Origin: a virus
Virus record (IMG/VR): IMGVR_UViG_3300020125_000256
Location: 1-51,796 of that record
DNA length: 51,796 nucleotides
Reading direction: 5' to 3' (one strand)
The notes beneath the pieces are model-generated. The model did no database searches. It worked only from the letters and a program-made list of their open reading frames with translations, and was not told the DNA's origin. The position numbers and the translations under genes were made by a program. Positions 11,554-48,664 of the stretch are shown in pieces. Within the stretch, counting starts at the first letter, position 1, and each line of letters begins with the position of its first letter.

Positions 11554-11577
11554 TTTACTTAAAGAGCGTTTTTGGCA

Positions 11578-12134
11578 TGAGGTTACTCAATCCACTTTGG
11601 GACAAAGAAACGCCACCACCGCCGTCATGCCGCCAATTGACGCTCGAAATCGTTGACTTTCTCTGGGCCAAGAGGCTGAACAAACAATGGCATTCGCGTT
11701 TGCCACGTATGGGGACAGGTTTTGTGGCTTCCATGCCATTCCTGTCCTTTGCCGCCTCGCACGAAGGGACAGCCTATGCGGTGGCCATTTGGTCCAATCC
11801 GGTCGCCCGAAACCTGCCCCAGCAGACTTGGCTCGAACTCAGGAGATTGGCCGTGGCGCCAGACGCCCCGAGGTACACGGCAAGCTGGATGCTCGGCAAA
11901 ATGACGCGGCATATTCGGAAGTGGCTGCCAGAAATAGAGAATCTCATCAGTTACCAAGATTTAGAGGTTCACACCGGCACCATTTACAAGGCCACTGGCT
12001 GGCTTCCTACCGTATCCAGCAAGGAAGGTGCTGGAATATGGGACAGACCAGGCAGAAGGCGTCCCAAGGCCCAATCTGAGGCCGGCAAACAAAGATGGGA
12101 AAAATGGTTGACAGGCGGGGTGGGTTCGGGGTAG
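11578..12134 (+). CDS. Mom-like DNA modification protein, copy 2
   Basis: The 185-residue product parallels the copy at 8778: KQWHSRLPR, LSFAASHEGTAYAVAIWSNP, TWLELRRLAVAPDAP, TASWMLGKMTRHI and LISYQDLEVHTGTIYKATGW occur in the same order. Many neutral substitutions indicate an old duplication rather than a recent one. ATG 11578 (MRLLNPLW) is preferred because the longer frame from 11430 would translate through the tRNA-like element and the hairpin; no strong ribosome binding site is visible, so initiation may be weak or regulated, as with Mu mom. The C terminus is basic. A perfect hairpin follows the stop. Confidence 0.78.
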
Positions 12135-23893: not shown

Positions 23894-25513
23894 TTATGCT
23901 CCACGACGGCGAATCTTGCCCGTCCCTGCCAATCTTACCCTAATCTGCTCCATGGCCCAAGGAGTTGAGGCCGATAGCTTTACGTAAATGGCATGGGCCG
24001 ACCGGCGAATACCACTGGTAAGGTTCCTGCCCGCTTGCCAGATCCCCGTCGCTACCGGTGTCGAAGCCAGGGCCGCTTCCGCCGTCGATCCCAGGTGCAC
24101 CGAGTAGGTGATGTCGCCCGAGCCGGTGCCGATAATGGCCTGCATGTCCTTGAGAATGACTTCATCCTGCTCTTTGGTCAGGATCGGCCCAATGACGACA
24201 GATGACGCAATAGCCGTCCCATCATCATCCACCGCATCCGGATTGAGGAACCGCACATACCCATCCCAAGACCCAATCAGGGCCACCCGGTCTTGGGACG
24301 TATTGCCGTCGAAGGTGGCACAACAAAGGGGGTTGTGGTAGGGGTTGGCAAACTCGTCCGTCCACCACGCTCCGACCCGCCATTCCCAGAACAGGTGCCG
24401 TGCCGTGGCCACGCCGGCCGTTGGCGTTACGAACACATGAAGACCCTGCAGGCGGTCGTCCCAGATAAGCCGGATGGTATTGGCCCCAGTGTTGACCTTG
24501 GCCAAAAGCTGCTCGATCTGCTGGCTGATCCTTTGCGGCACGGTCAAACCCGTCTGGGGGTTCATCATGTAAATGCCGCACAGGTTCGAGACAAAGTAGA
24601 CGGCCCCATAGGGGTCCTTACACCACGCCTCGCCCCAGGCCATGCCGATGGCGTCGGATACCCTGTCAATTTGCCCTCCAGAGAGGGGATCGCCACGTAT
24701 CACCCAGAGCGTGTGATCCCCTCCCATGAAGAGTACGTCGTCCGTGTACGGAATCAGGCCAGTGATCGTATCCCCCACCAGGCCAAGCTGGCTATTGTTT
24801 CCAGCTACCGCGTCGATGGCCGATGGGGATACGGGCGAGTAGTCGAAGTTGGTCGGGTCGCTGACCTTGGACATGAACCAGTTTTGCCCATCCTTGAGAA
24901 GACCGGACAGGACCGTCCGGCCTCGCCAGGTGCAGATGAGCCGCGGGGTATTGCCGTCCGAATCAACCGGCAGTGTGCCAGCTGTCGCAACCCAGGGGAG
25001 AACGGCATTCAGCTTTGGGTCGTAGAAGAGATAATGGCTGCCATCGGCGAAGTACATCTTCTGGTTATTTACCGCCGAGAAGACGATGCCGTTGGCGTTG
25101 AAGGCGCCGGTGCTGTTGGTGGGGGCGGTCCAGCCGGTGCCGCCGGCATCGACGATGCGAAGATCGCCGTTGGAGATGGCGACCAGTGTTACCACCCGGC
25201 CTGATTGACTTGCTTGCACAACGCCTCCCGGTGGGGGATAACCAATCCCCTCGACTAACCGAATCTCCTGAATCAGCCTCGACCCAGACACCTTCGCATT
25301 GACAAACTTCGATAATCCCGCTCTTTGGGCCCCTCGGGAACGGTTATTGGTCGGATCGAACGAACGCACATTGGTGCCTGCCCTGGTCGTCTTGGAGTAG
25401 GTGCCGTCGGGGAGCTGGACGACGGGCTGTTGCTCGACGGCCTTGCTGATGTCGATCCCGGCCAGAGGAAAGTGCATATCGACATACTGGAAGGTCTCCG
25501 CGAGAGGCGGCAT
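23894..25513 (-). CDS. putative beta-propeller nozzle protein (539 aa)
   Basis: ATG 25513 (MPPLAETF) follows GAGGTTG. The N terminus (GIDISKAVEQQPVVQLPDG, then NVRSFDPTNNRSRGAQRAGL) is the arm seen in phage tail-nozzle-like proteins, and the remainder consists of repeated strand blocks with RVVTLVAISNGDLRIVD, GRTVLSGLLKDG, DDVLFMGGDHTLWVIRG and FWEWRVGAWW, the cadence of a beta-propeller. T7 gp12-type nozzles close the short tail and contact the host. The 25522 gene shares the same N-terminal arm. A one-mismatch palindrome occurs at 24974-24989. Confidence 0.65.
   Translation of the reverse strand: MPPLAETFQYVDMHFPLAGIDISKAVEQQPVVQLPDGTYSKTTRAGTNVRSFDPTNNRSRGAQRAGLSKFVNAKVSGSRLIQEIRLVEGIGYPPPGGVVQASQSGRVVTLVAISNGDLRIVDAGGTGWTAPTNSTGAFNANGIVFSAVNNQKMYFADGSHYLFYDPKLNAVLPWVATAGTLPVDSDGNTPRLICTWRGRTVLSGLLKDGQNWFMSKVSDPTNFDYSPVSPSAIDAVAGNNSQLGLVGDTITGLIPYTDDVLFMGGDHTLWVIRGDPLSGGQIDRVSDAIGMAWGEAWCKDPYGAVYFVSNLCGIYMMNPQTGLTVPQRISQQIEQLLAKVNTGANTIRLIWDDRLQGLHVFVTPTAGVATARHLFWEWRVGAWWTDEFANPYHNPLCCATFDGNTSQDRVALIGSWDGYVRFLNPDAVDDDGTAIASSVVIGPILTKEQDEVILKDMQAIIGTGSGDITYSVHLGSTAEAALASTPVATGIWQAGRNLTSGIRRSAHAIYVKLSASTPWAMEQIRVRLAGTGKIRRRGA
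24974..24989. repeat. parS-like palindrome, one mismatch
   Basis: TGTGCCA-GC-TGTCGCA within the nozzle-like gene; one base off the consensus. Confidence 0.45.
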
Positions 25514-25521
25514 GGGCAACC

Positions 25522-26658
25522 TCAGAAGTACGTCCAGGCGACATAGCAGCGTAGGACCACGTCTTTGTCCGGCAGGAATATCGTCTTGCTCGTGATAAAG
25601 ATTTCTCCGCTCGTCCCCGTGGTCACAGTGCAATTGACAGTATCCGTGCCGGACAGTCCAACGCTATTGCCGAAGCTGTCGTCGAATCTCAGGGCAGTAC
25701 CAACAAGCGTTGTGCTCCATGTACCATCAGCCACTTCACCCTCTCCGGGGATTGTGCCAGATGGCGTATTTGGTCCAGGCGGGCTAACGGACCAGGGCGG
25801 TATGATCTCGAAGCTGCCGAAGGACGTGGTGTGCTCGGGAATGTCCGGGACCGTGATGCCGATACGCCGCAGAGTCGTCCGCACGGTAATGCTCAGGCCG
25901 TTGCACGCCAGAGTTCCGCCACCGCCTTCGTCGGGAACCGGCGGGCTGGGCGCCTTACCGTCCCAGGTTATCGTGACGACATTGCTCATGATGCCGTCGC
26001 TGGTCGCCTTGGCCTGGTACGTGACTGTCTCATTCACGTCATCGGCGACGCTCCAGGTAGCATTGCCATTGGGCGGGGAACTGATGTCCGTGACGGTGAT
26101 GGCGTGGATGTTGTCCCCGATCCGCCCCGAGGGGTTGGTGAAGAGGACAATGTCCTCGCCGCCAACGGTCGCCCCATTTCCGTCCTTGAGCGTGGCGACA
26201 AGGGTGTACTGGCTGCCGTCGCGATGGAGGGCCAGTTTCAGGGTGCGGGTTCCGGTTTTTGCTGACTGGAATCCATAGCCGACAGTGTTATCGAAGTAGG
26301 TAAGGTAAGTACCCACTCCGCCGACAATGTCCACGTATTTGAGATCGAACAGAAGTTGCCCGATATCACCAAGCTCGATGGTGTCGAAGTTAGCTCCCAG
26401 GGCGGCTCCATCGGTGATGGTGATAGTGTCAAGGAGTTGGATTTCATGAAAGCCACTCACCTGCATGTTGAGGTATTTGGTAATCCCCGGACGCTGTCCG
26501 CCCCGGCCCCGTTTGGTTAGCATTTCATAGGCACGGACATTGTCCCCGATAGGCGTGGTCCCAGGCGGCTGCTCCTCCTGCAAATGGGCAACGTCGATTC
26601 CCTTGGTGGGGAAAAGCTGCTGCACCAGTTGCTCATCGGCTGGGATAGCCTTGGCCAT
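25522..26658 (-). CDS. paralogue of the nozzle arm fused to Ig-like domains (378 aa)
   Basis: The first 90 residues (FPTKGIDVAHLQEEQPPGTT, NVRAYEMLTKRGRGGQRPGI, KYLNMQVSG) parallel the N terminus of the 23894-25513 protein, showing duplication of an attachment module. The rest is beta-rich: RDGSQYTLVATLKDGNGATV and WSVADDVNETVTYQAKATSD resemble big-type Ig domains, followed by a Pro/Gly linker and another beta domain. Likely a tail-attached accessory protein. Confidence 0.6.
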   Translation of the reverse strand: MAKAIPADEQLVQQLFPTKGIDVAHLQEEQPPGTTPIGDNVRAYEMLTKRGRGGQRPGITKYLNMQVSGFHEIQLLDTITITDGAALGANFDTIELGDIGQLLFDLKYVDIVGGVGTYLTYFDNTVGYGFQSAKTGTRTLKLALHRDGSQYTLVATLKDGNGATVGGEDIVLFTNPSGRIGDNIHAITVTDISSPPNGNATWSVADDVNETVTYQAKATSDGIMSNVVTITWDGKAPSPPVPDEGGGGTLACNGLSITVRTTLRRIGITVPDIPEHTTSFGSFEIIPPWSVSPPGPNTPSGTIPGEGEVADGTWSTTLVGTALRFDDSFGNSVGLSGTDTVNCTVTTGTSGEIFITSKTIFLPDKDVVLRCYVAWTYF

Positions 26659-27164
26659 TAAACACCCAAATCAAGAACCACGTACACCACATTTACCGTC
26701 AGCACGTTGTTGGCATGACCATCGTGGTAATCGCCGTTGATGCCGTTGTAGGCACCTATTGCCAACGCTTTGTTTGTAGGAGTCTGGGCCTCCGATGTAA
26801 CATATGCAGAAGTTTCACCCACATCGGTTAGTTGGACGATACTCATCAAAGCGGCTGTGGAAAATCCAGCGGCAAGGAATTGGGAGACTTTGCTAGAAAC
26901 GCCGCTTTCTTGCAAAGTAGCCATGTAGGAGTTGCCATCGGTATCACTTACATACATCGTCCCTGCCGCGAGAATGTTTGTGTAATCAGCTACCCAGTGC
27001 AGCTTTAACGAGATGGCCAGTGGCACAATGATTTTTCCAGAGCCCTGTGCAGGCACCAGTTCTACCAATCCTCCTGGAAATGTTGGCAAATGCAGGATTT
27101 GGGCGTTGTTTAGAACCTGCCGGGCTACGCGGACCGTATTCTGAGGAAATACCGAGATCGCCAC
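26658..27164 (-). CDS. putative structural protein (168 aa)
   Basis: GTG 27164 lies behind GGAGGACTAAT and gives VAISVFPQNTVRVARQVL; the longer frame from TTG 27179 lies inside the upstream gene. The product is beta-rich with few charges and no Cys, typical of a capsid or tail beta-sandwich. Not recognised. A one-base overlap with the downstream gene indicates coupling. Confidence 0.55.
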   Translation of the reverse strand: MAISVFPQNTVRVARQVLNNAQILHLPTFPGGLVELVPAQGSGKIIVPLAISLKLHWVADYTNILAAGTMYVSDTDGNSYMATLQESGVSSKVSQFLAAGFSTAALMSIVQLTDVGETSAYVTSEAQTPTNKALAIGAYNGINGDYHDGHANNVLTVNVVYVVLDLGV

Positions 27165-27165
27165 A

Positions 27166-27762
27166 TTAGTCCTCCACAATCGAACTCGCTGTGGTCAGAA
27201 TCGGGGTGATGCCCGAGCCGCAGACGATATTTGGGGTCACCGTGCCGTTGTAAAGCCGGTGTCCCGTGCTCGTCTGGGCTGTGCCAATTGACCCATGCGT
27301 CGCCGTTCCCGAGCCACCGCCGCCCGTGGGGAACGTGATGGCGGCAACGGGAGTAACCGTGCTGGCGCTCACACTCCAGCCGGAACCCGAACGGGCCACG
27401 GAGACACGCCCATAGGACGTATAGCCGATCTCGCTCGTCGTCTGGTCTCCCGTCTCGCCCGGATCGGCGGTATGCAGAGCACACCAGAAGACGCCCGGCG
27501 TCGAGGAACCCCGCAAGCCCGTCGCGTCGCCGATATTGGCGAAGTTGGTGTTGTTGAAGATTAAGAGGAGCAACCCGTTCTCCATCTCATCGGTCTTGGA
27601 GAAGTAGACGGGCGGCGTCCAGCCGGTATCTTTGGCGAACCGGTACGCCTCGTTGACCGCTCGCCGGAAGGGACTCTTCGGATTGAAGAACCGCAACCGG
27701 TCCAGGGTGATCGTCTGGAGCGTGCCCAGACGCATTTCTGCTTTAACTTTCTTTCGAGCCAT
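27166..27762 (-). CDS. conserved-type phage virion protein (198 aa)
   Basis: The C-terminal two thirds carry a pattern seen in many tailed-phage proteins: FWCALHTADPGETGDQTTSE, YTSYGRVSVARSGSGW, VAAITFPTGG, ATHGSIGTAQTSTG and LYNGTVTPNIV. The N-terminal 60 residues are basic and helical. The family is structural but, to my knowledge, not characterised in detail. A one-mismatch palindrome (27280-27295) overlaps the GSIGTA codons. Confidence 0.7.
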   Translation of the reverse strand: MARKKVKAEMRLGTLQTITLDRLRFFNPKSPFRRAVNEAYRFAKDTGWTPPVYFSKTDEMENGLLLLIFNNTNFANIGDATGLRGSSTPGVFWCALHTADPGETGDQTTSEIGYTSYGRVSVARSGSGWSVSASTVTPVAAITFPTGGGGSGTATHGSIGTAQTSTGHRLYNGTVTPNIVCGSGITPILTTASSIVED

Positions 27763-27773
27763 CGGACTCTCCT

Positions 27774-29618
27774 TTACATTCCAAATCTTCCCAGTTTGCG
27801 TCGCCAGCCCCGTGCGAAGCGACGTTTGAGAAATCTCATCGGTGTTCCACCCAACACAACCGGCGGCGGGATAATAATCGGCCCCTTGAAGGCATATGGC
27901 CGCCAGCCACCCACAACCGGCGTTGGCCCCTCTCCCACAAAGTCTACCACCGTAGTACCCGTTATCGTCAGCACCGATTCCTTCGTAGTTGTGCTAACGA
28001 AGGCCACCGTGCTCAGGTCAATGACATGGAGTACCCCTTCATCCTGGAGCGTGGCCGCCCCGACAAAGAGAACGGTACTACTTCCCGTGATGGCCAGAAC
28101 AGAGGCAGCCGTTGAAGCGGCGACGAAGGCGACAGTTGACGCACCTGTAATGGCCAGAGTCGAACCACTTCCACTTGCCCCGACAAAGGCGACCGTTGCC
28201 GTGCCCGAGATATCAAGATGGGCCGGGAAGGTGGTCTGACCCACGAAGGCAGCCGAACCGGTCCCCGAAATAGCCAAGACGGAATTGGGTTGGAGGACAG
28301 CGGCGGTGACGACCCAGAAGGCGGTGTCGATGAACTTCCAGTCGGCCGAGGTTGTCCCACCGGCAGCGTTCGTGATGTCCCCCAGCGTGATGACGCTGAT
28401 GCCCATGGACTGCTGGGACAGTCCGGGCAGGCTGGCCTTGTTACTCCAGCCACTCTTGTAGCCGATGGTGTTCTGGTAATCGTTCCCGGTCCCCAGGCTG
28501 ATGTCCTCGCCCATGACAGCGATGACGAGGCCGTTGGCGATACTAGTCAAGCTGCCCGAGGTCGGAGTGCTCGTAACACCGCTGTTGTTCGCCGCGGTCA
28601 GAAGGACGTTGCTGGCACCCGAATACTCAAGAACCACCGCACTGACGTAGACGTTGGCGTCGGGCGTAACGGTGACGATATGTCCGCTGCCGCCGTTGGT
28701 GTTGACGCACTGATAGATGGCCACCCGTAGGCCCGAACCGCTAGTGGCGGACTCGGCAGTCAAAAGCTGCCAGGTGTTGCCCTTGTTATCGGTGACGGTG
28801 GCAGTCAAGGTGCCCGCCGAACCGCTTACCGTGCCGACGCAGCAAACCAGGAGATTGCCCGTTGTGGTGGCAAAGGGATAGTTGACGGTGAGTGCGGTGG
28901 AAACGTAGGTCGATGTCGTTGGCGAGACGTATTCGGCATAACCAGCCTTTTGAACGAGTTGGATGCCGGCTGTGGGCGTCACGGTGGGCAACATGCCAAA
29001 TGACACACCCGTCTGGGTCACTGCCGAGGCAAAGGTGAAAGGCGTGTCCGTGTCGCCCGAGACGCCCAGCTTGTCTTGGGTGAACAGCGTCATGGCACTG
29101 GACGAGTTAGGCTGATCGACCCGCTTGGTAAAGCCAGTCCCGGCAGTGCCGGCGATCGTCCCGGCCGGCTGGGTGTAGGCGGCGAAGATGGCCACGCCGC
29201 TGTTGTTGGTGTAAACCTGACCGGCCGTGCAAGCCGTGACGCTAGTTTGATGGCGGCTGGACCAGGATTCGATGGGGGTTATCGCATCAACGCCCGAGTA
29301 TTCATGAATACCCAGGCCCATGTAGACGCTGGTGCCGTTGGGATCGACCGATACCGTGCAGGCCCCGGCGATAGCGATGCGGACAATGAACAGGTGAATG
29401 CGGGCTGTACCGACCTGCTGGGGAGGATAGACGGTGAACTGTTCGTATTCGTTGCCCAGGCCATCGGTGACGGTCAGGACGGGAATGGCGCCGCTGAAAG
29501 TAGAAACGGCGACGACGAGAAAGTTGCCGACAGTGACGTTCGAGTCGAAAGCAAGGGTGCGTGCGGAGGTACTGTTATTGAACCCTTGCCCCTTCGATTG
29601 CACGAACGCAATGCTCAT
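27774..29618 (-). CDS. repeat-containing tail/appendage protein (614 aa)
   Basis: Two successive beta-sandwich domains of about 200 residues (SKGQGFNNSTSARTLAFDSN; then VQKAGYAEYVSPTTSTYVST) share internal landmarks (GNFLVVAVSTFSGA and GNLLVCCVGTVSGS; HEYSGVDAITPI and LEYSGASNVLL), so they are duplicates. Six 19-22-residue GTST-type repeats follow (about 445-570), then a short basic C terminus (FLKRRFARGWRRKLG). The repeats match those in the LamG protein. It overlaps the sedolisin gene by four bases. Probably a host-contact protein. Confidence 0.65.
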   Translation of the reverse strand: MSIAFVQSKGQGFNNSTSARTLAFDSNVTVGNFLVVAVSTFSGAIPVLTVTDGLGNEYEQFTVYPPQQVGTARIHLFIVRIAIAGACTVSVDPNGTSVYMGLGIHEYSGVDAITPIESWSSRHQTSVTACTAGQVYTNNSGVAIFAAYTQPAGTIAGTAGTGFTKRVDQPNSSSAMTLFTQDKLGVSGDTDTPFTFASAVTQTGVSFGMLPTVTPTAGIQLVQKAGYAEYVSPTTSTYVSTALTVNYPFATTTGNLLVCCVGTVSGSAGTLTATVTDNKGNTWQLLTAESATSGSGLRVAIYQCVNTNGGSGHIVTVTPDANVYVSAVVLEYSGASNVLLTAANNSGVTSTPTSGSLTSIANGLVIAVMGEDISLGTGNDYQNTIGYKSGWSNKASLPGLSQQSMGISVITLGDITNAAGGTTSADWKFIDTAFWVVTAAVLQPNSVLAISGTGSAAFVGQTTFPAHLDISGTATVAFVGASGSGSTLAITGASTVAFVAASTAASVLAITGSSTVLFVGAATLQDEGVLHVIDLSTVAFVSTTTKESVLTITGTTVVDFVGEGPTPVVGGWRPYAFKGPIIIPPPVVLGGTPMRFLKRRFARGWRRKLGRFGM

Positions 29619-31609
29619 GACTGAAATCCAGTGAACGAACTACTCACCAGAATGACCGTATAGCCGGTGATGTCCTGGGCCTTGGAACCGGCGAACGTCC
29701 CGGTCCCTAGGCTAAACGTCGTGTTGTACATCGCTATTTGGCCGGACGTGCCGCTATGTGTGCCAGGTGGCACGTAATCGGCAAGGCCAATCGGTGCATC
29801 GGTAAAGCTGCAATGATCGAATATGGCGCCCGTATAGGATCCAAGCGCCGCCCAGTCAGCAACGATAAGGCCGGTGCAAGTCAGGTTGCGGTAAATGGAG
29901 CCTATGTTGGTCGTCCCGTTGAAGGCCGCTCTTTGAGCCGTGACGAGCGTGCTGTCCTCAATCAAGTTGTGCATGGAATAAAAGCGTTCCGAGATGATGC
30001 CATGCCTTGTGTCCGTGACAGCATTGTTTCTGACCCAGTTGGCGGCATTTATCATGAAGAACTCAACGCCCACCGAGGCGGTGCCGTACTGGTTATTGCC
30101 GTCCAGCGTATTGTTCTCGATCACCCATTCTGTTGTGACATCGCCAAAAACGATGGTGCTCGTGGAATCGACATCCACACGCCATTTCCTGTCCAGGGTG
30201 ACATCGTTTCCCGACTTGCTTACCGTGCGTGCCCATTGGCCGATCCCCTTGCCCGCAACCACCAATAAGCCGGCACTTGGCCGAATGAGGGTAGCATCGG
30301 AGAACGTTACTATCGTGGCTGCTCCTGTTGAATTGGACAAAACCGCCTGACCGGTAAACTCGACGGTGCCGCCATCGGAGTTTATTTGTTCTCCCGAGTT
30401 GGCATTGCCGTCCGTATCGAGCGGAGACAGCTTAAAGGTCGTATTGTTTGCGATGTAAAAGTAGTAGGTGTTGAACTCGCCCGCGACAAATTTGCCGTTG
30501 CCGCGGGACACCGTTGGACTGACCTGTGCCAGTGCCGGTATGAGCAAGTTTGCCTTGGGCGTTCCTCGTCCCGTAACCAGATCGAAGCCAACGCCCGCGG
30601 ACCCTGATACGGTGCTGCCCGTCGTGATGTCGTGAAAATTGGTACTGGCCGAGGAGTAGATGCCTGGCAAGGTTCCCGATGGACCGTCAAGCACGCTTTT
30701 GCCGGCAGCCACCCGCAACTGATTGACAATGGCTATGAGCCCGGCCCATTGCGGAGTCCCGGCACTCGTGCCGCCCGCTCCCAGCCATCCCGAAAAGGGA
30801 GGCTCACTGTTGTAAACCGAAAACGTCTGGCCACCGACATAGGCCACGTCCGGGGTGCAACGTTTCGTACTGCTCTGGGTAACAATACCTGTTTGGTAGG
30901 TCGGCTGTGTTTCGTAAACGCTGATACCGCCGCCGCTGCTCGCCCAGCCGGTTTCACTGGACCAGTTCCCCGAGCCGTCCGTTGTGACTAGCGTTCCGCC
31001 CACTCCCAGCACTTTCGGTGAGACACTGGGCCAGGAGATCGTGCCATCATCGCCACTGGCGGCCACGAAGGTAACGCCCGGTCCTGGCCATTGTGTGTCC
31101 CAAAAGGAGGCTTCATTGAAGAACTCGTTGAAGTCCCAGGACATGCTGATGACCGAGGCCCCCGCACTGGCGGCGTAAATGATGCCGGCCATCAGGTCGG
31201 ATACGGTGAAAGTATCGCACTCGACCAGAAGGATATTGGCCCCTGGGGCAATGGCATGTGCCCATTGCACGTCCAGGCACATCTCTACCGTCGCACCCTG
31301 GTCATAAGCTGGATAGGCGGTGCCGCCACGCTGATCGACCTTGGTGAAAACGGGCGGGTCGGGTAGCCCAAAGAAAGCACTGAAGAATGCCAGATCGCTT
31401 TCCACGTTGCCATTGTCGCCGCCCGGAATGATGATGGCGATGGTTTGCCCTGTCCCGTCGCCGACTACCAGATCGAAGCCATACGCCTTTTTGATGTCAT
31501 CTGGAGCAAAGCCGGCTGGACCTGACGGGGGAGAGCCGAAAGTACCAGCCCTGGCATCGTCCTTTTTGACGATGAAGTGCGGGAATCGGAATTTGCTTGG
31601 CTCGTTCAT
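29615..31609 (-). CDS. sedolisin (S53) protease fused to a beta-helix, virion protein
   Basis: Residues about 30-370 are a serine-carboxyl peptidase domain. E109 and D113 in VEMCLD form the Glu-x3-Asp acid pair, D187 in ASGDDG is the oxyanion Asp, S282 in GGTSAGTP is the nucleophile, and a C-terminal DITTG...GFDLVTGRGTP segment matches the calcium site. All catalytic residues are intact, and there is no room for the usual propeptide. Residues 370-664 are strand-rich right-handed beta-helix in style (VEFFMINAANWVRNNAV). S53 enzymes normally act at acid pH and are secreted. In this late gene it is likely an appendage protease that digests surface proteins or matures neighbours. It follows the TIG protein gene. 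Confidence 0.85.
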   Translation of the reverse strand: MNEPSKFRFPHFIVKKDDARAGTFGSPPSGPAGFAPDDIKKAYGFDLVVGDGTGQTIAIIIPGGDNGNVESDLAFFSAFFGLPDPPVFTKVDQRGGTAYPAYDQGATVEMCLDVQWAHAIAPGANILLVECDTFTVSDLMAGIIYAASAGASVISMSWDFNEFFNEASFWDTQWPGPGVTFVAASGDDGTISWPSVSPKVLGVGGTLVTTDGSGNWSSETGWASSGGGISVYETQPTYQTGIVTQSSTKRCTPDVAYVGGQTFSVYNSEPPFSGWLGAGGTSAGTPQWAGLIAIVNQLRVAAGKSVLDGPSGTLPGIYSSASTNFHDITTGSTVSGSAGVGFDLVTGRGTPKANLLIPALAQVSPTVSRGNGKFVAGEFNTYYFYIANNTTFKLSPLDTDGNANSGEQINSDGGTVEFTGQAVLSNSTGAATIVTFSDATLIRPSAGLLVVAGKGIGQWARTVSKSGNDVTLDRKWRVDVDSTSTIVFGDVTTEWVIENNTLDGNNQYGTASVGVEFFMINAANWVRNNAVTDTRHGIISERFYSMHNLIEDSTLVTAQRAAFNGTTNIGSIYRNLTCTGLIVADWAALGSYTGAIFDHCSFTDAPIGLADYVPPGTHSGTSGQIAMYNTTFSLGTGTFAGSKAQDITGYTVILVSSSFTGFQS
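29759..29774. repeat. parS-like palindrome, one mismatch
   Basis: TGTGCCA-GG-TGGCACG in the beta-helix part of the sedolisin gene; only the last base departs from consensus. Confidence 0.5.
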
Positions 31610-31615
31610 TTTGCC

Positions 31616-34600
31616 TCACGCGGGAACCAAGTCCTGGCAGGTGCAGTTGGTGACAGACCAGCGTGCCGTGTTCCATATGAAAATAGACGCGGCAACGAAA
31701 TCAATATCGGTCATACGCAAGGTGCAGCCGTCCACGATGCCGCCTGGACCGCCGTTCGTGAACACTGCTTGCGGCGAGATGATCGTGCTGTTCAGCACGC
31801 ATCCAAACGGATGGTTGTTCGTGTAATCGACCGCTCCAACAGTCGGGGCAATAACCTTGGAGTTAACAATGCGGGCACTGCGTATGGCGCCCAGGGATGG
31901 AGCGAACCCCGTAACATCAACCGTCACGCCTTCCAGTTGGCCGTAGAGGAAGCCATCAAGCAGGAGGTTATCGGTGAACCCTGCCGTGGGCTTGATGAAG
32001 GTTACGTCAACTCCCTGCCCCTTGATCTTGATCGCCTTGCCGCCGCCGCCGACAAAGAGCAATTGCGAATCGAGGAGATACGTGCCGGCCTGGAGGTTCA
32101 GCGTTCCCGGTCCATTGTTGCCAATGGTCGTCAGGGCACTCGTGAATTTCGCCTTGTCGGTCAGGCCGCCGCCAGCAGGTGCGGCCAAGTTCTGAACGTT
32201 ATGGCTGTAATCGAGTCCAATCGCCTGGGCTGTCGTGATAGTCAAGGTGTCTCCGCAGAGAGACCAGCCGTATTGTCCTCCGTGACCGTTGTGGACCCAG
32301 ACCTGATAAATCCCAACAGGAAGATTGGGGATTGTGAACCGGACCCTGCCTGGAGCCACGCTGAGGTTGGTGCCTGTCGTATCAACGCACGTTGGCGTGC
32401 CTCCGAATGTCGGCACCAGCCAGACCCAGCATTTGGCGGCCGCCACATTGGAGAGGTTGATGCCGTGAACGTTGCAGATGTCTCCGGCAATGCCCGAACC
32501 CGGATAAGCCGTGGTCGTATTCAGCCATCTCGCCTCGGCCCGGTTGACGACAAATGGCTCACCCACCCCAATCGAGTTCTGCGGCCAGACCATGTACATG
32601 TCCGTCGCCGGCAAGCCGGATGGCAGGATCAGGCGAGCCATCTGATGTGCTACATCGACACTGCCGATAAAGACACCCTGGAGGACGGCACCATTGCGTC
32701 CCGAGGCCAGGAAAGTCGTATCGGCAGTAAACTTGTCTCCGAAGATAACGATGGCATCGCCATTGTCGGCCACGCGGAAGTTGCCCTCGGACCACCTGGG
32801 GGCGTTGGCGTTGACGGACACGGCACCCACCGGATAGTTGACCGCATCCATGCCGGCCAGGAGACCAACCCCCGAAGGTGGGGCCTGGAACTGAGGGGCC
32901 GGGAAGCTCGGCGGCGGCGGCGGTGCCGAGGTAACGGTGAACGTGATGCCGTTCGATGTTCCATTGGCGTTGGTGACGGTAATCTGGGCCGTGGTTGCAT
33001 TGACAAGCAAACTGCTCGGAATGACGGCACTCAAAGAAGTTGAGTTGATGAACGTCGTGGTGAGGAAGGTCGAGCCAAACTTGGCCGTGCTCGGGTTGAT
33101 GAAGCCTGTACCCGTGAGATTGATCGTCGTATTGCCCGAACCCGCCTGGACCGATTGGGGAGAAACAGTGGTCAAGGTCGGTACTGGTGGCGGCGGGGGC
33201 GGCGGTGCCGGCGTGATGGTGAAGGTGACTGCGTTGGAGACGCCGCTGGTGTTGGTGACGGTTATCGAGGCTGTGCCATCTGACACAAGCAGCGTACTCG
33301 GGATAACGGCACTCAGGGACGTTGACGTAATGAACGTCGTACTCAGGGACGTGGCATCAAACTTGGCCGTGCTGGGGTTAATAAACCCGGTGCCGGTCAG
33401 GGAGATTGTGGTGTTGCCCGTGCCCGCCTGTACCGACTGGGGAGAAACCGTTGTCAGCGTGGGAGCCGGTGGGGGTGGTGCCGTGATCGTGAAGGTAACG
33501 CCATTGGAGGTCCCGTTCGTGTTCTGCACCGTCACCGTAACGAGGCTGGCCGAGACAAGCAGCGTACTGGGGATGATTGCTGTCAGCGTGGTTGCGTCCA
33601 CAAAGGTCGTGGTCAGGGACGTGGCACCGAAGAAGATCGTGGTGGGGTTGATGAAGTTCGTGCCAACCACGGTCAGGGGCGTATTGATGCTGCCGGCCTG
33701 GGTCGAGGATGGAGTTAGCGTGGAGATACTCGGCAGTATGGGAGGCGGGGCGGCCGTGATGGTGAAGGTAATGGAGTTCGATGTCCCATTGGCGTTGGTC
33801 ACATGCACGCTCACTGTGCCATCTGACGCTAGCAAGGCACCGGAAATCGTGGCCGTGAGCGAGACTGAACTAACGAACGTCGTGGCAATGCTGTTGACGC
33901 CAAAGACCAGAGTGGTGGGGTTGATAAACCCGGTGCCACCGATTGTCACCGGCAAATTGCCGCCACCTGCCTGCACGGACGAAGGCACAATGCTTGTCAG
34001 ACCTGGCACTGGCGGCGGTGGCGACGTGATCGTGAACGTAATGGAGTTTGAGGATCCGTTGGCGTTCGAGACGCTGACGGTCACGCTGCCGGCGGCGACA
34101 AGCGCAGTCGATGGGATGGTCGCCGTGAGCGAGGTGGAGTTGACAAATACCGTGGATAGATGGCTACTGCCGAATATCAGAGTCGTTGGATTGATGAAGT
34201 CCGTGCCGGTAAGTGTGACCGGCAAATTGCCACTCCCGGCCTGCACCGATGATGGTGCCATGCCGGTTAGCGTTGGTACGGGTGCTGGCGGTGGCGGCGT
34301 GACAATCGAGAATGCCAGCGAATTGGACGTGCCATTGGCGTTGGTCACAAAGCAAGGAACATTGCCACCGGTCGCGAGCAGCGTCGAGGGAATCGTGGCC
34401 GTCAGAGACGTGATGCTGCCGAAAACTGTCGAGAGGTTATTGCCGCCAAAAACAAACGTTGTCGGGTTGACGAAGTTGGTCCCGGTGAGCGTAATGGGCA
34501 GATTGCCGCTGCCGGCCGAGGCGGAAGACGGGGCCATGCTTGTCAGGGTAGGCGTTGGCGGTGGTGGATTGGTGCCTACCAGGAAAGTGAAAGGATTGGA

Positions 34601-35155
34601 GGTCCCCCCTCCCGGAGTGGGATTGATGACGGTAATGAACTCCGTCCCGCCCGTCTGCATTGCTATTTGCGGAATGGTGGCGGTAAGCGTCTGCTGATCG
34701 ACAAACGTGCTGAGGATCGTCACGCCGTTGAGTTGTACAACGCTGACGGAGCGGTAATTCGTCCCCGTGATCGTGATAGGCGTGTCTTCCGATCCCTGCT
34801 GGACAGTGCTTGGATTGACATCCGTTATCGTTGGCACCGGCCATTGCACGGTGATCGTCAGGGCGTTGGAGCTCGGCCCGCCCGGAGGACGAAAGACGGT
34901 CACGCCCAGGCTGGTGGGCGTGGCAAAAACGGCCGCGGGAACCAGGGCACACAGCTTGGTAGAGTTCGTGAAAGTGGTGGTGTAGGCTGTGCCACCGACC
35001 TTGATGATATCGCCCAGAACAAAGTTCTGGCCGACGACGTGGACCCACACGTCTGTCAAGATCTCCGCCGGCACTACGGTGGGTGTAATCGAATTGATGA
35101 AGGGGGGCGGTGTGGGTGCGGCGGTTGCGGGCGCCCTGGAGGGAAGTGGAAGCAC
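31616..35155 (-). CDS. eight-repeat IPT/TIG protein with C-terminal beta-helix (1179 aa)
   Basis: After a Pro-rich start, eight consecutive Ig-like IPT/TIG domains of about 85-95 residues occupy residues 20-770. Each opens like PTLTSMAPSSxxAGSGNLP and has GTNFxNPTTxxFG and SLTATIPSTLL. Domains are separated by PPPPP-type linkers. Residues about 780-1010 are a unique beta region (DAIVIFGDKF; ARLILPSGLPATDMYMVWPQ), and 1010-1179 look like a pectate-lyase-type beta-helix (GPGTLNLQAGTYLLDSQLLF). It would form a long fibre ending in a polysaccharide-binding or -cleaving tip. The GTG start is chosen because no ATG is in frame upstream. Two palindromes lie in the TIG array. Confidence 0.85.
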   Translation of the reverse strand: MLPLPSRAPATAAPTPPPFINSITPTVVPAEILTDVWVHVVGQNFVLGDIIKVGGTAYTTTFTNSTKLCALVPAAVFATPTSLGVTVFRPPGGPSSNALTITVQWPVPTITDVNPSTVQQGSEDTPITITGTNYRSVSVVQLNGVTILSTFVDQQTLTATIPQIAMQTGGTEFITVINPTPGGGTSNPFTFLVGTNPPPPTPTLTSMAPSSASAGSGNLPITLTGTNFVNPTTFVFGGNNLSTVFGSITSLTATIPSTLLATGGNVPCFVTNANGTSNSLAFSIVTPPPPAPVPTLTGMAPSSVQAGSGNLPVTLTGTDFINPTTLIFGSSHLSTVFVNSTSLTATIPSTALVAAGSVTVSVSNANGSSNSITFTITSPPPPVPGLTSIVPSSVQAGGGNLPVTIGGTGFINPTTLVFGVNSIATTFVSSVSLTATISGALLASDGTVSVHVTNANGTSNSITFTITAAPPPILPSISTLTPSSTQAGSINTPLTVVGTNFINPTTIFFGATSLTTTFVDATTLTAIIPSTLLVSASLVTVTVQNTNGTSNGVTFTITAPPPPAPTLTTVSPQSVQAGTGNTTISLTGTGFINPSTAKFDATSLSTTFITSTSLSAVIPSTLLVSDGTASITVTNTSGVSNAVTFTITPAPPPPPPPVPTLTTVSPQSVQAGSGNTTINLTGTGFINPSTAKFGSTFLTTTFINSTSLSAVIPSSLLVNATTAQITVTNANGTSNGITFTVTSAPPPPPSFPAPQFQAPPSGVGLLAGMDAVNYPVGAVSVNANAPRWSEGNFRVADNGDAIVIFGDKFTADTTFLASGRNGAVLQGVFIGSVDVAHQMARLILPSGLPATDMYMVWPQNSIGVGEPFVVNRAEARWLNTTTAYPGSGIAGDICNVHGINLSNVAAAKCWVWLVPTFGGTPTCVDTTGTNLSVAPGRVRFTIPNLPVGIYQVWVHNGHGGQYGWSLCGDTLTITTAQAIGLDYSHNVQNLAAPAGGGLTDKAKFTSALTTIGNNGPGTLNLQAGTYLLDSQLLFVGGGGKAIKIKGQGVDVTFIKPTAGFTDNLLLDGFLYGQLEGVTVDVTGFAPSLGAIRSARIVNSKVIAPTVGAVDYTNNHPFGCVLNSTIISPQAVFTNGGPGGIVDGCTLRMTDIDFVAASIFIWNTARWSVTNCTCQDLVPA
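32950..35110 (-). repeat. tandem TIG-domain DNA repeat array
   Basis: The array consists of units of roughly 270-300 bases, each encoding one TIG domain. The last two units (about 33000-33470) are the most alike, indicating recent duplication; the units near 34.6-35.1 kb are the most diverged. Confidence 0.7.
33272..33287. repeat. parS-like palindrome, perfect degenerate match
   Basis: TGTGCCA-TC-TGACACA inside a TIG repeat. The equivalent codons of another repeat carry a one-mismatch copy, TGTGCCA-TC-TGACGCT, at 33815-33830. Confidence 0.6.
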
Positions 35156-35159
35156 ATTT

Positions 35160-35714
35160 TCACCCCACGGATACGATTGGTTCGGCAGTGGCGTCCGTCG
35201 CCACGTCTTGTTGATAAGCGGTCGTCGCGTCGTCCTCCCGTGTCGTCGTCATTTTCCCCGGCGTCGAGTTGGTATCCACATGGTTGAGCAGCTTCCGCAA
35301 GGCATTGAGGACTGACTTGGCCTGCGGCTGGCCAGACCGAGAGATTACCGTGTTGATGTCCCCCAGAAGCATCTCGTCAATCGAGCCCGCATAGGTGGGT
35401 GAACCGCTGGACCCCACGGCATCCCAGGACAGATCGCCATAACCGGCCAGGGTATCCCCCTCGGCGGGGCCTACGCCGGCTTGGACGAAGATGGAAATGT
35501 GGTAGACGCCACTTGGCACAGCCGGCATATCGGCAGTGAAGTAAGCAGAAGCTACGCCCTGTTCCGTCATGGCAATGGCATAGGTGGCGAGGTTGGCGGT
35601 GGCGTAGACTTCGAAAGCGGCCCCGTTCCAGATCTGGCCATCGGTTGCCCGGCGTACCTCGGCGTAAAGGGTATCGCCGGTTGCCGTCCACTGGATTTGA
35701 ATTTCTTTGGCCAT
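35160..35714 (-). CDS. putative baseplate/tail accessory protein (184 aa)
   Basis: ATG 35714 (MAKEIQIQWTATGD) is chosen over 35768, which would add residues from the intergenic hinge. The first 110 residues form a beta-sandwich (TLYAEVRRATDGQIWNGAAF; YHISIFVQAG). A helical segment follows with IDEMLLGDINTVISR and SVLNALRKLLNHV, and the end is Thr/Asp-rich. The build matches small phage connector proteins that link a fibre to a tail; not recognised by family. Confidence 0.55.
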   Translation of the reverse strand: MAKEIQIQWTATGDTLYAEVRRATDGQIWNGAAFEVYATANLATYAIAMTEQGVASAYFTADMPAVPSGVYHISIFVQAGVGPAEGDTLAGYGDLSWDAVGSSGSPTYAGSIDEMLLGDINTVISRSGQPQAKSVLNALRKLLNHVDTNSTPGKMTTTREDDATTAYQQDVATDATAEPIVSVG

Positions 35715-35730
35715 GATATCATTCCGCCAC

Positions 35731-36417
35731 TTAAGTAAGAGCGACCGACCCGGTGACGACCGTTCCATTCGCGGTCTTCGCCTTTATTTTTAACTTGCCG
35801 GCACCATTCGTTGGGTCCAGGTACAGGCAGATTTCGTTCGCGGCCAAATCGCCGTCCGCTGGTATTGTTGTTCCCATGATGACGATATCGCCGAATTGCA
35901 CACGGCCTGCCCCTGTTTTGATGGCGAAGTTATTGGTGGCGGCGGCGACATCGCCAACAAAAACTCCATAGGCGTTATCAACGCTTGGATAATTGCCATC
36001 AATAACGTAGAAGCCAATCCAATTTGTAACAGGGCCGCCAACTGGCTGGATAATTCCGTCCGCGACAAAACACGACAATGTGCCGCACCGGCCCGGACCA
36101 AAGTTTCCAACCGCACAGTCTATCCCCCAAATGCGGTTGTTGGGTGCATCAACAGCACTTTTTCCGAATGTGTCGATGTTCAATGCGGCCGCCCCGGCAC
36201 CTATGCCACTGTCATCGGTAGTCAAGGCCACCACATTGAGTCCGGTTGTATAGCCACCGCCTTCTTGCTGAACTAACAGACCTACCGAACCACCAGAAGG
36301 AACAATGGTACCGATGTTTACCGTGCCTCTTCGTCCCCACCAGTCCTGAATACTGGTGTCGAAGTTGGGATTGTCACCAAGCAGCCCAAAATTTCCTGAT
36401 ATTACGCCAATCCCCAT
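35731..36417 (-). CDS. putative structural/appendage protein (228 aa)
   Basis: ATG 36417 (MGIGVISGNFG) is preferred to 36438, which adds a Cys-rich start. The middle (TGLNVVALTTDDSGIGAG; NWIGFYVIDGNYPSVDNAYGVFVGDVA) resembles a trimeric fibre or head domain, and the last 50 residues (LAANEICLYLDPTNGAGKLK) match the end of many phage appendage proteins. No enzymatic residue is apparent. Confidence 0.55.
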   Translation of the reverse strand: MGIGVISGNFGLLGDNPNFDTSIQDWWGRRGTVNIGTIVPSGGSVGLLVQQEGGGYTTGLNVVALTTDDSGIGAGAAALNIDTFGKSAVDAPNNRIWGIDCAVGNFGPGRCGTLSCFVADGIIQPVGGPVTNWIGFYVIDGNYPSVDNAYGVFVGDVAAATNNFAIKTGAGRVQFGDIVIMGTTIPADGDLAANEICLYLDPTNGAGKLKIKAKTANGTVVTGSVALT

Positions 36418-36424
36418 GTCAACC

Positions 36425-36937
36425 TCACAGCAAAGCAAACAGGGCGTTCATGCTCGTCGGCCCCGTGCCGATCTGGAACGTGAACTGAATCTTCTGGAAT
36501 CCCTTCACGTCACTCATGAAATGGGCCACCGTGTCGTCCGCCGGCGACACCGTGTCCGTTGTCACGCCCGCATCACCCGTCGTTAACACCAACGTGTCCG
36601 CGAAATGCTCCGTCGCCGTGAAGAATCGAACGCTCGCCCCCGCGGTGCAGGCGTATTCAACGATGGTCACGGGCACCCACACGATCCTGATTGGGTCATT
36701 CTCATCGAGGCTGGACCAGCCAGTTACCCGGATGGAGTAGGTGTCGTTGGTGGCCCCGAGGGAGTAAGGCACGACCCGAATGCCGTTCTGGACCACCCCG
36801 CCGTTCATGTCGTCCAGGGTGAAGACCCCGGCGCCGGATGGCGTCGTATGCGTCTCGGCCAGGACGGGGAAGGTGGCCGATGTCGAGTTGACGGCCAGGG
36901 CTCTGCGGAAGCTGGAGCCCATGGTTTGGATCATCAT
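36425..36937 (-). CDS. hypothetical virion protein (170 aa)
   Basis: A 170-residue beta-rich protein opening with MMIQTMGSSFRRALAVNS and containing AGVFTLDDMNGGVVQNGIRV. A second ATG follows the first. An intrinsic terminator for the upstream gene ends only a few bases before the start, so translation must use GGGGTGAGGC as binding site and the mRNA either reads through or starts nearby. No family recognised. Confidence 0.55.
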   Translation of the reverse strand: MMIQTMGSSFRRALAVNSTSATFPVLAETHTTPSGAGVFTLDDMNGGVVQNGIRVVPYSLGATNDTYSIRVTGWSSLDENDPIRIVWVPVTIVEYACTAGASVRFFTATEHFADTLVLTTGDAGVTTDTVSPADDTVAHFMSDVKGFQKIQFTFQIGTGPTSMNALFALL

Positions 36938-37362: not shown

Positions 37363-38175
37363 TTACTGATAAGTCATCCCGTTGTACGTCGCCGCCGGCG
37401 CCCACCAATGCACGTTCTGCCGGTTGAACGGCGCCCGGTCGGAATCGTCCCGGTTGTATCCCAGCTTGGCCGGCTTGTGCTTCCTGTCGATGCTGATGGA
37501 AGCCGACAATCTCTCCTGCCAGGTGGCCCACTGGGGTCCCTTGGCGTCGTCCAGCTTGAGTTCGGCCATGGCGAGGCAGGATTGCAGGATCGTCTCGGCA
37601 TGGGCAGCCCCACCATAAGCAAACGGCAAAGCGTTCGTCATGGCATCGGCCTGGAGATAATACTGCCCCTGGATCGTGTACTCCCGGTCGGCTAGCGGGA
37701 AGACGAACAGCTCAAACCGCTGACTGCGGACGGCATTGGTCCCCTTGATGGGTCGTTCGCAGGCATATTGCGGCGGGCCGGTCATGGTTGGCGTCACGGA
37801 ATACTGCTGGCGGATCTTGCCCTCGTTCTGCCACTCGATCTGCCACGGCATCGAGGTCGTGTTGTCCGTCAGAAGGCTCAACTGGTTCTCAAAGCCGCCG
37901 AAGTCATCGGGCAATGTGACAGTTGACGCACCCTGGGCGAAGGTGAAGGTTCCGACAGGATGGAGGAAGCTCCAGTCGTAGGAGTTGGCTTCGCCTTCGC
38001 GGGGGGAAGGGTAGAGGAACTGGTGATACCCGGATCGGACGCAGTCCATGATGTCGTTGGTCTTGTTTACGTCCCAGGCCGGTTCCCCGAAGTCAACACC
38101 CCGACCGTAGCCCAGGAATCTGCCGACTCGGGCTTGCAGGTCTGCGAATGTCAGGTTCAGGGTTGATTCGGCCAA
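37363..38175 (-). CDS. putative connector/adaptor protein (270 aa)
   Basis: The 270-residue protein begins with a helix-rich segment (TFADLQARVGRFLGYGRGVD; DIMDCVRSGYHQFLYP) typical of head-to-tail adaptors that wedge between portal and tail in podoviruses. A beta-rich middle follows (FTFAQGASTVTLPDDFGGFE; EYTIQGQYYLQADAM) and then a helical end with AETILQSCLAMAELKLDD. Position just downstream of capsid genes supports the role. Exact family not recognised. Confidence 0.6.
   Translation of the reverse strand: MAESTLNLTFADLQARVGRFLGYGRGVDFGEPAWDVNKTNDIMDCVRSGYHQFLYPSPREGEANSYDWSFLHPVGTFTFAQGASTVTLPDDFGGFENQLSLLTDNTTSMPWQIEWQNEGKIRQQYSVTPTMTGPPQYACERPIKGTNAVRSQRFELFVFPLADREYTIQGQYYLQADAMTNALPFAYGGAAHAETILQSCLAMAELKLDDAKGPQWATWQERLSASISIDRKHKPAKLGYNRDDSDRAPFNRQNVHWWAPAATYNGMTYQ
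37915..37930. repeat. parS-like palindrome, one mismatch
   Basis: TGTGACA-GT-TGACGCA in the adaptor gene. Confidence 0.45.
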
Positions 38176-46227: not shown

Positions 46228-46591
46228 CGGCCCACTCCGGTTCGGGGGGCTTCGGCAGATCGGGCGCCCGGTCACTGTAACCGGCGTCCCTGTCGAAGAA
46301 ACCATACGCCTTATGGTATGCACGCCGGTGCGAACGACTCGTGAACACCGGGCACCCATTCTCATCGAAATACGTCGGTACTCCCTTCCTGACCGCTGAG
46401 TCCATGGCCTCTTCCCTCTGATCGGGATGAACAGCTAACGCCTCGCAATGCTGATCCTTCCAATGAACGAGGCCGGCGCCTGTGCCAATTGGCACATCCG
46501 GGAAAACTGCGTCAAATGTCGCCTTGGCCACTTGCTTGCCGTCGATCCAGTAAGTGGTCCGGTCGCCTTCGCCCTTGATTATGCCTTTCAT
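46220..46591 (-). CDS. hypothetical protein after the portal (123 aa)
   Basis: ATG 46591 overlaps the portal stop (ATGA). The N-terminal half is strand-rich (MKGIIKGEGDRTTYWIDGKQ; VHWKDQHCEALAVHPDQREE), and the C-terminal half has a conserved-looking TSRSHRRAYHKAYGFFDRDA and Pro-rich end. The longer frame (to 47143) runs inside the portal and is not used. A perfect palindrome (46481-46496) lies in the gene. Function unknown. Confidence 0.6.
   Translation of the reverse strand: MKGIIKGEGDRTTYWIDGKQVAKATFDAVFPDVPIGTGAGLVHWKDQHCEALAVHPDQREEAMDSAVRKGVPTYFDENGCPVFTSRSHRRAYHKAYGFFDRDAGYSDRAPDLPKPPEPEWADV
46481..46496. repeat. parS-like palindrome, perfect copy
   Basis: TGTGCCA-AT-TGGCACA in the gene after the portal, encoding VPIGT. 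A weaker copy (TGCGTCA-AA-TGTCGCC) follows at 46508. Confidence 0.75.
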
Positions 46592-48429
46592 CCGATGCCT
46601 GCTCCTGCTGGTTGACCGTTGGCTTTGGGTGCCGAGGCCATCATCTGTTGCACCCGTGAATTGTCCTGGTTCGCCGTCGAGTTGCCAAGAGAACGCCGGT
46701 TGTAGTTCCGCGTCGTCTCGGCCTGCATGGGCGGCTTCTCCACCCCCGCCTGCCCCTGCTCCTTGTCCACTGGCGGCTCCCCAATCGTGAGAAGTTCCTG
46801 AATGTCCGGATCGTCCAGATACAGGCCCACCTTCTGGAAGTATTTGTTGAGGTCCAGAGCAATCCCCTGCTGCTGGGCCAGCTGGGCCAGGGGAAGGTAA
46901 ACCTGCTGGATCACCTGATTCATCGCCGCCAGCCTTTGTTGCGGCGTCTGGTGCTGGAGAGAATAAGCATCCACCTTGACATCCATGTCCTCGTACTTGT
47001 GCGAGCGTACCATTCTCCCCGGCATGTTCTGATGCACGTCCGGGTTGTTGGGGTAAGTCTCCAGGGGAATGGAGATGCCCTCTATCCCTGGTATCTCGTA
47101 CTCGGCCCTTGTGACCCGATGTGGATCGTGATGGTAGAACCAACAGAGGGCATTGGCCACATCGTTGGTGAAGTCGAGCACCCGTCCCTGCATGTCGGCG
47201 ATCGAGGCGGCCGAGTTCTCGTTGAGCATTTCATCTTGATGGGCCGTCTTACTCTGGGGAGACAGGCCGCCCATGATGTCGAGGTTGCCGGCCAGCCATG
47301 AGACCAATTCCTTCATGGCCATGAAGAACTGGAAGTTCTGCGGGTTGGGGCCGCCCATCGTCACTTGGCGGATCTGATCGGGGTTATCGACCTTGATGAT
47401 CTCGCCGTCGTTGGAGACCATGACGCGAGTGCCGTCCTCGTTGGCGGGGCCGGTTACGAAGGTGTTTTCCTTTTGCCTTTCGGCTTGGCGCATGAGCTTT
47501 CTGAGGAGGCGGTTGATGTTTTCGTGGAGGTCGATGAGATCCATGACAGGCGCTTTTGGCATTGGGTTTCCAGGGACCGTGCCAAAGCCAAGAATGTGGT
47601 AAGGTCCTTGATCCGGACCAACCCAGGGTCGAATTGAAAGAGCCTTTCCATGATGCTGGTCGTCCCCGGAAGCCGCCCCCGTAAGGTTATCGTCACGGAG
47701 AGTAATGATGAGGCGGTGTCTGGGTAAATAAAACTCCCATAGGTCAACGAAGTCTTCAAACTCTTCTTGGTCCGAGCCAAGGGTCGTCCTCCCGATAAGG
47801 CCAATCCGTTCGTCGCCTTCCATGTTGTAAATGCGGTCAGTGGATACTTCGACGTTCTTGCGGTCCTTGGAGAACATCTTGGTTTCGCGGACTACAGCCA
47901 GGGGCGCTCGATAACGATGCCCAAGAAACCCAGCCTCCCCGAAGTCTCGGCAGTGGATGTCAAACACAAAGTCGTCCAAATCCACTCGCTCAACAAATGG
48001 CTGTCCCGCCTGGTTCTTCCAACCAGTGGTAGCTGACTCAGCGGGAGTAGCCAGCCCAACCTTCGCGATCCCAATGGAGAATAAGGCATCCGTCACCACC
48101 CTCTTCAAGATGTTCGCCAGCCGAATCCGCGGTATCTCCCGGTTGATCCACAGGCCCATGGCGTTGACAATCGGCCGGCTGCCGCGGTCCCAGGTGGACA
48201 GGAGAACTCTCGGGTTCTGGGCGATGAGTTTGCGGCCGACGACGGAGACGTACTGGCCGATGATGTTGCAGGGGACGGCCTGAATGGCACCTTCTTCGGA
48301 ATAGTGGCGGCCTACATATTGGCGGACGGCATCGAAGCGTTCTTGACGGGGCCGCCTCAAGACGAGTCGAGCACGCTGGGCAGCGGCCGCGAGGCGGGCT
48401 ATGAAAGTGCTGTCGATCTTGTCAGCCAC
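46588..48429 (-). CDS. portal protein (613 aa)
   Basis: The 613-residue protein directly follows the terminase region and has portal character: a helical N terminus (FIARLAAAAQRARLVLRRPR), the wing and stem-like domains around RHYSEEGAIQAVPCNIIGQY and VNAMGLWINREIPRI, the IDLHENINRLLRKLMRQAER stem helix and a long C-terminal Gln/Pro-rich tail. It forms the DNA entry ring at one capsid vertex and receives DNA from the terminase. P22-type portals have similar length. No catalytic function expected. Confidence 0.85.
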   Translation of the reverse strand: MADKIDSTFIARLAAAAQRARLVLRRPRQERFDAVRQYVGRHYSEEGAIQAVPCNIIGQYVSVVGRKLIAQNPRVLLSTWDRGSRPIVNAMGLWINREIPRIRLANILKRVVTDALFSIGIAKVGLATPAESATTGWKNQAGQPFVERVDLDDFVFDIHCRDFGEAGFLGHRYRAPLAVVRETKMFSKDRKNVEVSTDRIYNMEGDERIGLIGRTTLGSDQEEFEDFVDLWEFYLPRHRLIITLRDDNLTGAASGDDQHHGKALSIRPWVGPDQGPYHILGFGTVPGNPMPKAPVMDLIDLHENINRLLRKLMRQAERQKENTFVTGPANEDGTRVMVSNDGEIIKVDNPDQIRQVTMGGPNPQNFQFFMAMKELVSWLAGNLDIMGGLSPQSKTAHQDEMLNENSAASIADMQGRVLDFTNDVANALCWFYHHDPHRVTRAEYEIPGIEGISIPLETYPNNPDVHQNMPGRMVRSHKYEDMDVKVDAYSLQHQTPQQRLAAMNQVIQQVYLPLAQLAQQQGIALDLNKYFQKVGLYLDDPDIQELLTIGEPPVDKEQGQAGVEKPPMQAETTRNYNRRSLGNSTANQDNSRVQQMMASAPKANGQPAGAGIG

Positions 48430-48664
48430 TTGGCATGGCTTTCTCCCTGGCCTCTACAACCATCTTCTCGTATTCGTTGAGCCTATCAAGAGACTTCTGT
48501 GCCTCCGGAGTAATGGTTGGCGTCCACGTCCATCCATCCGGTCCATACGTCCCCTTGCCAGCACATTTCATCATAATAAGGGCTTTCATCGAATTGATTC
48601 GCGAAAGTTCTTGGCGAAAAAGCAGATCATCAGGAGGAGGAGGGATCGAGTCAAACTTCTTCAT
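48422..48664 (-). CDS. hypothetical protein between terminase and portal (80 aa)
   Basis: The 80-residue product (MKKFDSIPPPPDDLLFRQEL, then YGPDGWTWTPTITPEAQKSL and a helical end LNEYEKMVVEAREKAM) has no recognised family. It overlaps the portal start by eight bases and the terminase end by 14 bases. Small proteins in this position may assist portal assembly. Confidence 0.6.
   Translation of the reverse strand: MKKFDSIPPPPDDLLFRQELSRINSMKALIMMKCAGKGTYGPDGWTWTPTITPEAQKSLDRLNEYEKMVVEAREKAMPSG

Follow-up and report, generated by a model that had tools for sequence, protein, structure and literature searches.

The late gene at positions 29615-31609 of the phage genome analysed here encodes a real and apparently intact S53 (sedolisin) protease domain, and our sequence comparisons indicate that this sedolisin lies inside what looks like a beta-helix spike, which it divides into two ORFs. 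The window, that is, the whole stretch of DNA under analysis, is a 51.8-kb IMG/VR record, and the features discussed below are collected in Table 1.

Table 1. Late-gene features of the window, with their coordinates, strand and supporting evidence
Feature	Position	Strand	Evidence or remark
Terminase large subunit	48651..50513	minus	phrog_2 2.2e-12; relatives 38-52% identity
Portal protein	46588..48429	minus	phrog_332 2.7e-7; SU10 portal PF23899 0.0067, below cut-off; 45-49% identity in relatives
SU10-type head-tail adaptor	37363..38175	minus	PF24175 E=4.6e-7, above cut-off
Conserved late gene, one cassette flank	36425..36937	minus	27-33% identity to G051, G052, G057
Variable late-gene cassette (~11 kb) with the split spike	25634..36424	minus	tblastn synteny; ~1.5 kb at the same place in G052
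Upstream spike half: 8 TIG domains, Ig-like region, putative N-terminal beta-helix half	31616..35155	minus	1179 aa; in frame with the S53 gene
Putative N-terminal beta-helix half, residues ~985-1179 of the TIG protein	31619..32203	minus	sequence homology
Junction TGA-GGC-AAA-ATG	31607..31618	minus	stop in frame, overlapped by a GAGG Shine-Dalgarno-like motif; S53 start follows
Gene of S53 (sedolisin) and putative C-terminal beta-helix half	29615..31609	minus	664 aa, ATG start; neither signal peptide nor propeptide
S53 catalytic domain, residues ~26-366	30512..31534	minus	alignment, AlphaFold2, Foldseek
E109	31283-31285	minus	S53 catalytic residue, alignment
D113	31271-31273	minus	S53 catalytic residue, alignment
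D187	31049-31051	minus	S53 oxyanion Asp, alignment
S282 (GTS motif)	30764-30766	minus	S53 catalytic Ser, alignment
D327	30629-30631	minus	S53 calcium ligand, alignment
Putative C-terminal right-handed beta-helix half, residues 371-664 of the S53 protein	29618..30499	minus	Gloeothece, Agrobacterium and planctomycete-sample matches
Conserved late gene, other cassette flank	23894..25633	minus	52-60% identity in relatives

The S53 domain and its setting in the phage genome

A sequence-only reading of this DNA had proposed an S53 domain in this gene without giving its strand, which is the minus strand. In a phmmer search against the PDB the 664-aa protein matched sedolisin at E=4e-10 and TPP1 at 4e-5, which rules out a chance resemblance to the family; tblastn recovered relatives, and AlphaFold2 modelled residues 26-366 with pLDDT values mostly around 90, giving a fold that Foldseek matched to kumamolisin-As (E=2e-22, target-normalised TM 0.79). 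The same reading had placed the catalytic elements at E109, D113, D187 and S282, and they lie exactly there: all four are invariant in the 79 sequences of our alignment (the window protein, five plasmid-borne bacterial proteins and 73 from virus contigs, near-copies included), among which none has the catalytic mutations that it had named as evidence against its proposal. The calcium segment that it had pointed out is also present, with D327 kept in 78 of the 79 sequences and G341 and D343 conserved. It had further suggested a search with the S53 profile, and here the outcome was divided: with the complete protein as query, Pfam and PHROGs gave no match and NCBIfam one subtilisin-like match below threshold, whereas the PDB search did identify the family. 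Since these three libraries give no usable label, a domain search restricted to them would miss S53.

The phage appears, by its sequence, to be SU10-like. Its minus strand carries the late genes, namely terminase, portal and SU10-type adaptor followed by large tail-region proteins, and its plus strand codes for ERF, YqaJ, a helicase, two Mom-like proteins and a weak match to a C5-methylase. The two Mom-like DNA-modification proteins (8739-9350 and 11430-12134) share 52% identity with each other, and the C5-methylase match (9827-10528) lies between their genes. A related terminase was found in eight virus contigs (38-52% identity), and the three longest of these (G051, G052 and G057), which are partly fragmentary, show late-gene synteny with the window. 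Bacterial contamination of the contig was rejected because terminase, portal, adaptor and other late genes share this synteny with three related virus contigs. In samples of Planctomycetota, Acidobacteriota and Pseudomonadota the terminase had few and incomplete relatives, which are uninformative about the host.

The earlier description of the S53 gene as a phage late gene agrees with this context: it lies downstream of the terminase, portal and adaptor genes and between conserved late genes, and the neighbouring late genes share its strand, at intergenic distances of 4, 6 and -4 bases. The cassette that holds it is variable, and neither the TIG protein nor the S53 protein had a match in the three syntenic contigs or elsewhere among the eight related records. 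Such a position is where the host-recognition proteins of these phages are expected. Other late proteins of this region also have parts in common. The products of 23894-25633 and 25522-26658 (minus strand) share an N-terminal region (38% identity over 82 aa) that looks like an attachment module, and those of 20548-22050 and 27774-29618 (minus strand) share repeats of about 100 residues, the former protein also having a LamG-like domain (Pfam 2e-25).

The two spike ORFs and their junction

The gene preceding the S53 gene codes for a protein in which Pfam recognises TIG in eight stretches (8.6e-43), and whose match to the pectate-lyase-like family PF12708 (E=0.083) is below the cut-off, as is that of the C-terminus of the S53 protein to PF08480 (Disaggregatase-related, E=0.01). 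Bacterial relatives were more informative. Residues 794-1176 of the TIG protein matched a Gloeothece protein at E=7e-24, and the C-terminal half of the S53 protein matched Gloeothece, Agrobacterium and planctomycete-sample proteins at E values of 5e-8 to 1e-15; few proteins match residues 363-664, and they come from Gloeothece, Rhizobium/Agrobacterium and three genomes in the planctomycete sample. In four bacterial proteins the two spike parts form one continuous protein without S53, and an S53 search of these four gave no match. In the Gloeothece protein the TIG match runs to residue 1176 of 1179 and the match to the S53 protein starts at residue 371 (E 1e-11), leaving a gap of 6 residues; the corresponding phage distance is 375 residues, or 11 once S53 and both junction codons are discounted. 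The other three one-ORF proteins have 170-229 residues between the parts, where 146-163 would be expected without S53 and 510-527 with it. Among 400 shuffled queries the best E value was 0.004, whereas the true queries gave 5e-5 to 9e-24.

Both phage ORFs share one frame (35155-31609 = 3 x 1182), and this, together with the continuous S53-free bacterial proteins, suggests that S53 occupies a loop in what was ancestrally one beta-helix. The helix regions are 25-33% identical to their relatives, and it is on this homology that helix continuity across the insertion rests, because AlphaFold2 gave no confidence outside the S53 domain, nor for the first helix half alone. The sequence-only reading had described the S53 domain as fused to a beta-helix; homology, at the AlphaFold2 confidence just given, upholds the helix as partner, but not a plain fusion, since S53 appears to lie between two helix halves, the first of them in the preceding gene. 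Searches for an uninterrupted phage version of the spike gave no match; the alignment of the second half was too diverse to serve as a query. The plasmid-borne helix relatives of Agrobacterium and Gloeothece sit among polysaccharide or glycosyltransferase genes, which makes a glycan substrate plausible for the phage helix.

How the two ORFs are expressed depends on their meeting point, which reads GCG-TGA-GGC-AAA-ATG. The TGA could be a sequencing or assembly error, or could be read through at some rate, and the product would then be a single spike of 1846 residues with an internal S53 domain; the shared frame, and a second start placed only two codons past the stop, would fit such a product, whose helix would be covalently continuous like that of the bacterial relatives. 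Nevertheless, the GAGG that precedes the ATG resembles a functional ribosome site, and similar motifs (GAGG/GGGG) precede the starts of neighbouring genes; to our knowledge a TGA followed by G is not a strong read-through context, and in many other genes of the window the stop codons terminate the frame as usual. We consider a single-chain spike unlikely and favour two adjacent cistrons. The in-frame insertion may have come before the stop, or both may have arisen at once.

Origin of the domain and S53 genes of other viruses

A genome scan returned 300 stretches coding for S53 relatives, and among the best 80 of these, which were kept, identities to the phage domain were 42-49%, with E values down to 3e-84 (tblastn), the top matches being planctomycete proteins with 45-49% identity. 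In our careful tree the window domain falls inside a Planctomycetota clade (support 98/97), and its origin is probably planctomycete. The absence of the propeptide, reported by the sequence-only reading, is real, as only about 25 residues precede the domain and the N-terminal prodomain of classical members is not present. Its view of this absence as unusual did not hold, and we discarded it as a sign of novelty: the subfamily mostly has a short N-terminus in place of the prodomain, and since the nearest cellular relatives, secreted planctomycete S53 proteins, are of this same type, the absence is ordinary. The prodomain would thus be a trait of the classical S53 members and not of the whole family, and what the phage copy appears to have lost relative to its nearest kin is the signal peptide.

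S53 genes are not restricted to this phage. Two scans of IMG/VR with an alignment as query yielded 91 S53 loci, where a scan of virus contigs with a single protein found none, so that an alignment was needed. Among 50 S53-bearing records searched, 11 had a phage terminase by one family alone; some of the loci within L083-L096, those whose N-termini are of lipoprotein type, may be bacterial. In L053, a 345-kb contig, the S53 gene has a tail-fibre-like gene on one side and a gene for a virion structural protein (phrog_5838, 7.6e-223) on the other; in L089, too, a virion structural gene is near S53. The statement that these peptidases are normally secreted by bacteria and eukaryotes is therefore incomplete, as it misses dozens of S53 virus contigs, including 345-kb phages. 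At least four switches between viral and cellular labels are required by the starred branches of the wide tree, and phages seem to have captured S53 several times independently. A single origin of the window domain with the phage S53 of L007, L088, L089 and L095 was rejected (AU test, p=0.003).

Some features of these viral proteins deserve mention. A C-terminal tail of about 30 residues, like TFPKQNYGFRPASGxAYPRKTTGVR, ends the S53 proteins of 48 loci within L008-L082, whether a prodomain is present or not (for example L014:9497-11158, L053:9911-11143 and L062:9506-11086); otherwise it occurs only on one short, chance-like ORF, and it might be a virion docking tag. In L007:9905-14605, L088:9920-19930 and L089:9860-14581, the S53 domain starts giant phage proteins (1567, 3337 and 1574 aa, respectively), and L007 and L089 also share neighbouring genes, a W.Y.DENGNL-type segment at the N-terminus and an INW-type C-terminal end. 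The S53 gene of L069:2204-3922 is broken into ORFs 2204-3130 and 3134-3922 by a stop in frame, and is either a decaying copy or another split gene.

Could the S53 domain of the window be a recent and dispensable cargo, with no role in the particle, whose insertion merely broke the spike? The split gene and the absence of S53 from the relatives of this phage would fit, but the 664-codon ORF is intact, its catalytic residues have been kept along a long branch (0.58-0.67 changes per site), its GC3 resembles that of the rest of the phage, and other phages keep S53 in their tail-fibre regions. We regard a mere cargo as very improbable, and a functional part of the spike as the better reading.

A proposed two-chain spike and its comparison with known systems

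We propose that a planctomycete-type, propeptide-less S53 domain, minus its signal peptide, entered a loop of the beta-helix in a tail-spike gene with a TIG stalk, and that the in-frame TGA, the Shine-Dalgarno-like GAGG and the ATG would now make two adjacent cistrons, the first coding for the TIG stalk and the first helix half, and the second for S53 and the other half. Both chains would be made in the cytoplasm, most likely by translational coupling. S53 enzymes typically work in acid, so the protease would stay quiet there. We infer that, on the particle, both chains together would form one complete beta-helix; the spike would cut or bind glycans, and the protease, standing out from it, would clip proteins of the host surface or matrix once the phage is outside the cell. 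Taken as a whole, the entry of S53 into the spike gene, its split into two cistrons and a two-chain spike with a protruding protease seem to us rather more probable than otherwise.

The protease might instead act on the spike of the phage itself, trimming or releasing parts of it at assembly or after adsorption, like the self-cleaving chaperones of fibres. The domain does sit inside the spike, and self-processing domains occur in phage fibres; yet the nearest kin of this one are secreted general proteases, the chains are in any case encoded by separate ORFs, and the relatives of this phage do wholly without S53. We find self-processing quite improbable, and keep to a protease directed at the host surface.

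The well-known enzymes of phage spikes cut sugars or peptidoglycan. A true protease directed against host-surface proteins, if this is what the spike carries, would offer another route of entry, of relevance where hosts have protein-rich envelopes, and our analysis suggests a particle that cuts both proteins and glycans on the host surface. Insertion of a domain midway along a beta-helix, where it also splits the gene, would show a spike gaining an enzyme while keeping its old scaffold. More tentatively, and with somewhat less than even confidence, we see here a two-chain tail spike in which a protease-bearing chain completes a glycan-active beta-helix, as one case of a repeated, undescribed arming of tail fibres with acid proteases. 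S53 recurs in the phage contigs of IMG/VR, apparently through several independent captures, so the idea can be tested on many phages. A limited literature search, which does not prove novelty, gave no description of a phage S53, and an S53 domain in a phage spike is, as far as that search goes, so far undescribed.

With the classical S53 peptidases of MEROPS (sedolisin, kumamolisin, TPP1) the phage domain shares the fold, the Glu/Asp/Asp/Ser catalytic residues and the calcium site; it differs from them in having neither signal peptide nor prodomain, in its place in a phage late operon and in being joined to what is probably half a beta-helix. The propeptide-less secreted S53 proteins of Planctomycetota share its clade, up to about 50% identity and the lack of a prodomain, but they are bacterial and apparently exported, and among those found none is inside a beta-helix. 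The L008-L082 proteins, like the window protein, mostly have no recognisable signal peptide, and some are encoded beside tail-fibre or virion structural genes; they would represent a separate capture, from the kumamolisin branch, and most have an N-terminal region of prodomain length (Pro-kuma_activ was confirmed in the three tested). Among the predicted viral structures of BFVD, the named strong S53 matches were four soil giant viruses (Terrestrivirus, Sylvanvirus, Homavirus and Barrevirus), which share the fold but, unlike the window phage, infect eukaryotes and have no tail spike. A giant-virus paper that names a sedolisin (PMC12724359) was set aside, as the accession shows that the entry is among the amoeba (host) proteins. 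An architectural parallel is the LKA1 gp49 type of tailspike, described as a beta-helix with an insertion domain and a discoidin-like domain (PMC5701251): in both, a phage late gene would code for a beta-helix into which another domain is set, but here the insert is a protease and the helix appears to be spread over two cistrons.
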